From positions 43,207 to 107,206 of the forward strand of contig NZ_JAPSHJ010000011.1 in the NCBI RefSeq assembly GCF_031179985.1: 64,000 bases of DNA, written 5' to 3'. The notes beneath the pieces are model-generated. The model was not told the origin of the DNA. It was given only the letters and a program-made list of their open reading frames with translations, and made no database searches. Each line of letters begins with the position of its first letter. The first letter of the stretch is position 1. The stretch is from Arthrobacter sp. (GTDB taxonomy: Bacteria > Actinomycetota > Actinomycetes > Actinomycetales > Micrococcaceae). Of this stretch, positions 38,682 through 40,907 are shown one piece after another. Both the position numbers and the translations under genes were made by a program.

Positions 38682-39515
38682 ATGGAAGAGCTGTCGCAGG
38701 GAAAGGACACTGCCGTTCCGGTGGCGCTGTCCAGTGCTTCCGTCTATCCCTTGAGCGTTCATGATGCGTTCGCTGCTGCCCAGGAAGTGGGGTATGACGG
38801 CGTCGAGGTGATGGTGACCAATAACGCCACCAGCCAGAACGCCCACGCCCTTCTGGAGCTAAGCCACCGCTACCGGAAGCCGATTGTCTCCATCCACGCA
38901 CCCACGCTGCTTTTGACGCAGCAGGTGTGGGGCACGGCGTGGAACAAGATCGAGATGTCCTGCCGGATGGCCAGGGAAGTCGGCTGCGGTACGGTCGTTG
39001 TCCACCCGCCTTTCCGCTGGCAAGGAAACTACGCCGGAAAGTTTGTTGCGGGAATCCGCGAGCTCGCGGAAATGTACCAGGTCCGGATCGCCGTCGAAAA
39101 CATGTTCCCGTGGAGGGTACGCGGCCGGGAAGCGGTGGGCTATGCGCCCCATTGGGACCCACGGGACCAGGATTACGACGACGTCACTTGGGACTTCTCG
39201 CACGCCTCCACTGCCGGTTCCAACAGTCTTGATGCGATCAAGGGCCTCGGCCCCAGGCTTCGCCACGTGCATTTGTCGGATGGGCTGGGATCCAGGCGGG
39301 ACGGGCATCTGGTTCCGGGTACGGGCAACCAGCCCTGTGCAGAGGCACTGCAGTATCTTGCCGCCACCGGCTTTGATGGTGTGGTGGTGGCGGAGATTTC
39401 CACTCGCAGGGTTCGGACCGCCGGAGAACGGCAGCAGCGGCTTGAGCAGACGCTACGGTTTGCCCGCCAGCATCTGGGCCTTCCGCTGGTAGGAGCTTCC
39501 GACAAGGACTCGTAG
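38682..39515 (+). CDS. Sugar phosphate isomerase/epimerase (AP-endonuclease-2-like TIM barrel)
   Basis: VGYDGVEVMVTN, VVVHPPFRWQ, VAVENMFPW, HVHLSDG; Rv0498-like position after ppx. Confidence 0.88.
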   Translation: MEELSQGKDTAVPVALSSASVYPLSVHDAFAAAQEVGYDGVEVMVTNNATSQNAHALLELSHRYRKPIVSIHAPTLLLTQQVWGTAWNKIEMSCRMAREVGCGTVVVHPPFRWQGNYAGKFVAGIRELAEMYQVRIAVENMFPWRVRGREAVGYAPHWDPRDQDYDDVTWDFSHASTAGSNSLDAIKGLGPRLRHVHLSDGLGSRRDGHLVPGTGNQPCAEALQYLAATGFDGVVVAEISTRRVRTAGERQQRLEQTLRFARQHLGLPLVGASDKDS

Positions 39516-39550
39516 GCTCCCGTTGCAACGAGAGCCCCTTAACGAGAGAA

Positions 39551-39646
39551 GCGCCGGGTGGTTTCGCAGAAGAAGTTGGGGGAACGCTTCTACAACCACC
39601 CGGCGCGTTCGCCGGTTCGGGGGGAACCGGCTTCATCACTCGCACC
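39551..39646 (-). ncRNA. Candidate structured element 1 (two hairpins plus conserved GGTGCGAGTGATG 5' tag on minus strand)
   Basis: Hairpin A 39551-39563/39594-39606 (13 bp), inner AGAAG/CTTCT; hairpin B 39611-39618/39624-39631 (8 bp); conserved 13-mer 39634-39646. Confidence 0.5.
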
Positions 39647-39810
39647 TTTTCAGGCACTTATAAACCTACTTGCCCTTTTTGGAGGTTCGGGGAGATTTTC
39701 CTGTGAGTAGGCTGGGAATCGTAGTCGTCGGCACGCCCTTGAACCAAGCAGCACATTAACCGTCGTACTAAAGGGTTTAGGCCTGCCCAGGGACTGCTTT
39801 AAATGCGAAA

Positions 39811-39906
39811 GCACCGGCGATCCGCTGCAGGAAAATGGGGGGAAACCTGCTGCAGGATCACCGGTGCCAAGGCAAGCATCCCCATGCTTGCTGCATCACT
39901 CGCACC
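39811..39906 (-). ncRNA. Candidate structured element 2, homologous in architecture to element 1
   Basis: Hairpin A 39811-39823/39855-39867 (one mismatch), hairpin B 39872-39879/39884-39891 (8 bp perfect); identical 13-mer 39894-39906. Confidence 0.5.
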
Positions 39907-40073
39907 CTCAATGAGGTAGTTCCTACGTTAGGGGCCCACCTTGTGTAGAGCCTGCGCTCAAGGTGGGAATGAGCTGGGAATGCGGGTTTTATGTTGCGGT
40001 CATCATCCGGCTGCGTCCGGTCACGGCAGAGTAATCTCCTGCGTCCGTCCCGGCGAACTGCAATGATGGAGCA

Positions 40074-40907
40074 ATGAGTAACCGAATTGCTTTCCTGGGC
40101 TGTGGATCCATGAACGAGGCCATCCTGACCGGACTCCTGGAGGCCGGAACGGATCCTGCCGATATTGTCGCCACTGTCCGTCGTGGCGAGCGTGCGGCTG
40201 AACTCGCCGAGCGCCACCATGGCATCACTGCGATCGCCGGTGAGGAAGAGCCAGACAACAACAAGGACGCAGCGCGGGGTTCCGCCGTCGTGATTCTGGG
40301 TGTGAAGCCGATGGGCATTGCAGGCTTGGCGCGGGAGATCAGCCCGTCCATTTCTCCCTCCACCATTGTGATCAGTGTTGCCGCGGCAGTGTCCATCGCT
40401 CAGCTGGAGGCTGCCCTGCCCGCAGGCCAGCCGGTCATCCGGAGTATGCCCAACACGCCTGCGAAGCTTGGCAGGGGAGTGGTTTCAGTGTCACCGGGCA
40501 CAAGCTGTTCCTCGGAGCAGTTGCAGCTGGCCAAGGACGTCCTCCGAGGGGCAGGCAGGGTAGTTGAGATCCCGGAAGATCAAGTGGATGCGCTCGGAGC
40601 CATCAGCGGTTCCGGTCCCGCTTACGCCTTCTACCTTGCCGAGGCAATGGCCGCTGCCGGAGTCAGGCTCGGCCTGGACCCGGAGCTGTCCCTTCTGTTG
40701 GCTACCGAGACGGTTGCCGGTGCCGGCTTCATGCTGGCCGAGCCGGGGGCTAACCCCACCGAGCTCCGCAAGGCTGTCACCAGTCCGAAAGGAACCACCG
40801 AGCGTGCCATTGCAACCTTCGACGAGCGCGACCTGCCCTCGATCATTGCGGATGCAGCCCGCGCCGCTGCCGATCGGTCAGCGGAAATCACCAAGCAGCT
40901 CGCCTGA
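40074..40907 (+). CDS. proC: Pyrroline-5-carboxylate reductase
   Basis: IAFLGCGSMNEAILTGLL, VIRSMPNTPAKLGRGVV, ISGSGPAYAFYLAEAM. Confidence 0.97.
   Translation: MSNRIAFLGCGSMNEAILTGLLEAGTDPADIVATVRRGERAAELAERHHGITAIAGEEEPDNNKDAARGSAVVILGVKPMGIAGLAREISPSISPSTIVISVAAAVSIAQLEAALPAGQPVIRSMPNTPAKLGRGVVSVSPGTSCSSEQLQLAKDVLRGAGRVVEIPEDQVDALGAISGSGPAYAFYLAEAMAAAGVRLGLDPELSLLLATETVAGAGFMLAEPGANPTELRKAVTSPKGTTERAIATFDERDLPSIIADAARAAADRSAEITKQLA

Follow-up and report, generated by a model that had tools for sequence, protein, structure and literature searches.

Few actinobacterial sRNAs have a known mechanism, and Actinobacteria are, to our knowledge, without the chaperones Hfq and ProQ. In Firmicutes, the LhrC family of Listeria and the UCCC-motif sRNAs of Staphylococcus exist as sibling copies whose C-rich or UCCC loops are expected over Shine-Dalgarno sites, and LhrC is controlled by a two-component system. 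Among actinobacterial RNAs, the defining trait of the 6C RNA is a pair of stem-loops, each carrying about six Cs (PMC4046766). Another one, Ms1, was reported also in Arthrobacter; it adjoins the gene of a HAD hydrolase ('inhibition of morphological differentiation') and binds the core of the RNA polymerase (PMC9130861). We analysed a stretch of 64,000 nucleotides from Arthrobacter sp. (the window), in which the intergenic region at 39516-40073 holds two copies of a structured element on the minus strand (Table 1). We give a probability of roughly 0.68 to the reading that these are tandem, paralogous and independently transcribed genes of trans-acting sRNAs, members of a Micrococcaceae-wide family absent from Rfam, whose loop would repress mRNAs.

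Table 1. Features of the intergenic region and of its neighbours (positions in the window).
Feature	Position	Strand	Support
sRNA copy 2 (proC-proximal), predicted transcript of ~117 nt	39801..39917	-	150/150 congeners, covariation in A1, covariance model R1
sRNA copy 1 (distal), predicted transcript of ~115 nt	39541..39655	-	27/103 loci, covariation in A3
Copy 2, 5' module ACCTCATTGAGGGTGCGAGTGATG: small hairpin and single-stranded GUGCGAGUGA	39894..39917	-	(Near-)invariant in A1; common to all paralogues
Copy 1, conserved 5' module GCCTGAAAAGGTGCGAGTGATG	39634..39655	-	Comparison of paralogues, A3
Copy 2, hairpin B, 8 bp, GGGG tetraloop	39872..39891	-	Folding, covariation in A1
Copy 2, hairpin A, loop UUUCCCCCCAUUUU, C6 at 39837-39842; probable terminator	39811..39867	-	Folding, A1
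Copy 2, U-tail, directly after hairpin A	39810-39801	-	
Copy 1, hairpin B, 8 bp, C-rich loop	39611..39631	-	Folding, covariation in A3
Copy 1, hairpin A, loop GUUCCCCCAAC, C5 at 39578-39582, then tail UUCUCUCGUU; probable terminator	39551..39606	-	Folding, A3
Copy 2, -10 box TAACGT (-13..-8)	39925..39930	-	TANNNT here in 97% of 109 proximal copies
Copy 1, -10 box TAGGTT (-13..-8)	39663..39668	-	TANNNT in 97% of 30 distal copies
Copy 2, predicted operator, four half-sites every 11 bp, CA cores at 39976/75, 39965/64, 39954/53, 39943/42	39941..39981	-	Conservation profile
Copy 1, predicted operator, spaced as in copy 2, CA cores at 39714/13, 39703/02, 39681/80; third half-site degenerate	39679..39719	-	
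proC, pyrroline-5-carboxylate reductase, divergent neighbour	40074..40907	+	Pfam PF14748, PF03807
TIM-barrel isomerase-like gene, convergent neighbour	38682..39515	+	PF01261

Two minus-strand copies upstream of proC

Among the features originally noted for the pair is an identical 13-mer, GGTGCGAGTGATG, which we retrieved at 39646-39634 and 39906-39894 of the minus strand and at no other site of the 4.33-Mb assembly. A third occurrence of GGTGCGAGTGA in the genome was set aside, as it lacks the 5' hairpin of the module. Both copies fold as claimed: against dinucleotide shuffles, the minus-strand z-scores of their minimum free energy are -5.1 and -4.6, and the plus-strand ones -3.9 and -3.8. 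We confirmed two C-rich loops in copy 1 (C6 and C5) and one in copy 2 (C6); the description of C-rich loops needs correction at hairpin B of copy 2, where the loop is GGGG, without a C-run. We considered a kissing interaction between this GGGG loop and the C-loop of hairpin A, and found it unsupported: GCGG loops coexist with full C5/C6 runs. The RNAs are probably somewhat longer than the ~100 nt proposed, since they are predicted to span ~115-117 nt and to start 9-11 nt upstream of GGTGCGAG. The ends of both transcripts are predictions, and the U-tails of the terminators are short and interrupted. Inspection of the neighbouring genes revealed no minus-strand gene downstream of either copy; hence, the copies are not leaders.

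The stems of the two copies had been noted to differ while pairing is kept, and homologues across Micrococcaceae bear out this covariation. We aligned 28 proximal sequences (A1) and 24 distal ones (A3). In A1, 96.9% of the cells pair, two-sided changes occur in 13 helix pairs (shuffles: 5.9) and covariation in 60 cells (shuffles: 12.8); kinship between the sequences inflates these shuffle-based statistics, and a fairer comparison is with slid versions of the alignment, which score at most 0.118 against 0.242 for A1 itself. In A3, 94.2% of the cells pair and 27 covary (10.8 in shuffles). Further pair types are no more numerous there than in shuffles, so the distal covariation is weaker than the proximal one. 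G-U cells exceed A-C cells in both alignments (50 vs 8 in A1, 55 vs 13 in A3), as expected if the RNA is read from the minus strand.

The nearest named homologue of the proC of the window is that of Arthrobacter rhizosphaerae (96% identical). A search of 150 congeneric genomes matched the intergenic DNA upstream of proC in every one of them, and we extracted the region from just over 100 genomes. The conserved block consists mainly of the proximal copy and its promoter. Nearly all proximal copies start with TACCTCATTGAGGGTGCGAGTGAT. Next come a hairpin whose loop is GGGG or GCGG, a long hairpin that carries UUUUCCCCCAUUUU as its loop and a U-containing tail, e.g. UUUCGCUUUUAA. A distal copy homologous to copy 1 was found by pattern scan in a minority of the loci examined (Table 1), with an invariant C5 within the loop sequence GUUCCCCCAA. 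Two distal copies (L099, L111) have no hairpin B at all; what they keep is the 5' module and hairpin A with its C-loop. In the closest relative (A. rhizosphaerae relative, L004/L034, G049:C12:458180-459446), the copies are separated by ~1 kb that includes additional sequence, and a fragment of copy 1 is repeated. The position divergent from proC recurs in other genera (L216, L221, L223), which is why this location is probably ancestral.

Promoter and predicted operator

Each copy is preceded by a complete promoter, which the original prediction did not describe and which comprises a -10 box and a predicted operator, spaced identically in the two copies. Together with the strong covariation in Micrococcaceae, this corroborates the proposal of two paralogous minus-strand RNAs. 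We numbered the promoters from the purine of (A/G)CCUC as +1. In copies from other genera, TANNNT occupies -13..-8 in 83% of 81 cases. Upstream of it lie 11-bp direct-repeat half-sites at -58, -47, (-36) and -25, with conserved CA cores every 11 bp (-59/-58, -48/-47, -37/-36, -26/-25), and the outer pair of half-sites is 47 bp from the predicted start in both copies of the window. The conservation profile of the family promoters contains no recognisable -35 box. The element ATTCCCAGC, thought to be shared upstream of the two RNAs, is indeed present at both; its place is in the promoter, as the outermost half-site, outside the RNA. The tandem pattern TTCMCAGNNNNYTCMCA occurs at five sites genome-wide, two of which are these promoters. 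The only other occurrence that looks non-coding, TTCACAGGAAATTCACAGCG (L226, G000:C61:65917-65933), lies upstream of a small lipoprotein-like gene divergent from argS, possibly a co-regulated gene.

An array of four half-sites at 11-bp intervals that ends ~11 bp before the -10 box is the layout of an OmpR/PhoB-type activator site. A response regulator of this type may thus act here, and we infer from the motif that MtrA is the best match. The mycobacterial MtrA site is a direct repeat of GTCACAgcg (PMC2945938, PMC13189361). The half-site core TCMCAGC resembles it, a resemblance of motif only, and the tandem 11-bp spacing is typical of OmpR-family regulators, whereas here there are four half-sites and their first base is T/C instead of G. 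The mtrA gene is present in this genome, and a search of the region upstream of it found none of these repeats. OmpR-type regulators other than MtrA remain candidates for the predicted operator. MtrA has an osmotic role in Corynebacterium (PMC8334368) and the sRNA pair lies close to trkA and trkH as well as to proC, so osmotic control may be worth testing, even if the hint is weak.

Distribution and diversity of the family

The covariance model R1, which scores copy 2 at 130 bits in its own genome, matches 169 of 248 Micrococcaceae genomes, in 27 of 32 genera. Across 395 genomes of the class, it matched no other family. All members have the 5' module (A/G)CCUC-n-GGUGCGAGUGA and, behind it, one or two hairpins that vary; a search with the pattern of this module adds members missed by R1. 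The same pattern was found in nine of ~273 genomes of the order outside Micrococcaceae (two for a reversed control). We took these matches as chance because their form is unlike the family and the best R1 E-value is 0.1. Searches of plasmids and phages found no DNA like the sRNA pair. Literature searches, which covered open-licence papers, found no report of this sRNA.

Some genera have up to eight copies per genome, in tandem (sometimes ~160 bp apart) or dispersed. The paralogues have in common the promoter layout and the 5' module, whose hairpin exists in the variants ACCUC/GAGGU and ACCUU/AAGGU, while their bodies vary and their loops are C5/C6, CGCCUCCUUGU or short. C-rich loops are found in 93 of 110 proximal, all 30 distal and 56 of 81 other copies. 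One subtype (L168, L169, L202, L204) has the 5' module ACCUUCUCAAGGUGCGAGUGAUCA and the loop CGCCUCCUUGU, which contains CCUCCUU, the core of the 16S anti-Shine-Dalgarno sequence. At one locus (L208, G171:C5:179124-179604) there are four tandem copies ~160 bp apart with loops that vary between them. In two genomes (G168, G171), dispersed paralogues (L204-L211) adjoin permease-like or ureide/purine catabolism-like genes. Their neighbours, assigned by eye, include NCS1-, NCS2-, SulP- and MFS-like proteins, a cupin and a PucR-like regulator; this neighbourhood could reflect co-regulation or chance.

The comparison of both copies with Rfam gave nothing at the gathering threshold and nothing credible up to E = 10, an outcome in favour of the original prediction; the matches obtained at E <= 10 (MIR2629, snoZ6, ncr1175, BjrC68) are far below cut-off and were discarded. 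The 6C model RF01066, which the original prediction had held to differ, has no match in the region up to E = 10, and the whole of Rfam, RF01066 included, has none in 20 relative loci. The best score of RF01066 in this genome is 22.8 bits, below its curated cut-off of 47 bits. It belongs to an unrelated locus on the minus strand (L063, G000:C56:53280-53345), a strong hairpin with a loop of six Cs.

Possible mode of action and relation to known RNAs

Comparison across genomes strongly supports the RNA structure, its strand, the distribution of the family and the shared promoter layout. On comparative grounds, the copies look like stand-alone genes of trans-acting sRNAs, having a promoter at fixed spacing, a terminal hairpin with a U-tail and a structure conserved through covariation. 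In the mechanism that we propose, an OmpR/PhoB-type response regulator would bind the four 11-bp-spaced half-sites and activate a promoter devoid of a recognisable -35, transcription would terminate at hairpin A, and the C-rich apical loop would pair with several mRNAs at their G-rich Shine-Dalgarno or translation-start regions and repress them. The invariant 5' module may provide stability or bind a common partner. Among proximal and among distal copies alike, the stem changes and its loop is conserved, which suggests that the loop is the contact surface. Its most likely role would be the translational repression of several mRNAs, because C5/C6 runs match G-rich Shine-Dalgarno sites by complementarity and the CCUCCUU of one subtype is itself the anti-Shine-Dalgarno core. 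C-loop pairing cannot be the whole function of the family, since ~30% of the copies of other genera have short loops without a C-run.

The main rival reading, which we regard as unlikely, retains a real sRNA and makes it act by protein binding: the GUGCGAGUGA module or the loop would titrate or recruit a partner, like CsrB-type decoys or 6S/Ms1-type RNAs. It owes its standing to the 5' module, which is the most conserved part of the RNA and persists even in the short paralogues that lack a C-rich loop in their hairpin. Multicopy tandem arrays are also known for protein-titrating RNAs. Nevertheless, the retention of the loop over covarying stems and the subtype with an anti-Shine-Dalgarno-like loop suggest base pairing. 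More tentatively than the repressor reading, the family may be regarded as a modular multigene sRNA system, in which the invariant 5' module (the hairpin and GUGCGAGUGA) would dock an RNA-binding partner in these Hfq-less bacteria and the seed loops would be interchangeable (C5/C6, a CCUCCUU mimic or none), with one response-regulator operator per copy and amplification in tandem or dispersed arrays.

The remaining alternatives do not fit the data well. It is very unlikely that these RNAs are divergent 6C RNAs, even if copy 1, with its two hairpins and their C6 and C5 loops, comes close to the two-C-loop definition: hairpin B is not C-rich in the proximal group (GGGG in copy 2) nor in most distal relatives (UUCG-like loops), the 5' module and proC context are specific to the present family, and RF01066 detects none of the members compared with it. 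We find it highly improbable that the region merely holds a structured element (terminator, attenuator or repeat) without an independent sRNA. Hairpin A does have a U-containing tail and sits between convergent genes, but dedicated -10 boxes and predicted operators lie at fixed distances, and loop and 5' module are conserved beyond the needs of a terminator; moreover, the minus strand has no gene downstream to attenuate, and it is the strand favoured by the wobbles. It is scarcely credible that the RNA is a short mRNA translated from the GUG or AUG of GUGAUG, AGGGUG serving as the ribosome site. A Shine-Dalgarno-like GAGGG does lie ~8 nt before GUGAUG, but indels of 1 nt right after the 5' module shift the frame between close relatives, for which reason we rejected coding from this start; in some copies, moreover, the sequence is AUGAUCUGA, where a stop follows at once.

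The family is a candidate for a new entry in the RNA catalogue Rfam. It is present in all congeneric genomes searched and in most genera of Micrococcaceae, and combines a constant 5' module with variable loops and a shared predicted operator. It would make Arthrobacter and Pseudarthrobacter a tractable system to study the use of base-pairing sRNAs in such bacteria and the possible recruitment of a common partner by the constant module.

Like the 6C RNA, these RNAs are actinobacterial, ~100 nt long, and have C-run stem-loops and a terminator hairpin at the end. Unlike it, they usually have one C-rich loop, an invariant 5' module and another genomic context, are limited to Micrococcaceae, are multicopy in some genera and have no covariance-model match. 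Ms1 is also an actinobacterial sRNA; however, its length differs and the neighbours here are proC and a TIM-barrel gene, without the HAD-hydrolase synteny. By analogy, the functionally closest systems may be the multicopy C-rich-seed sRNAs of Firmicutes. These belong to another phylum, have another 5' module and promoter, and we know of no sequence relation between them and the present family.
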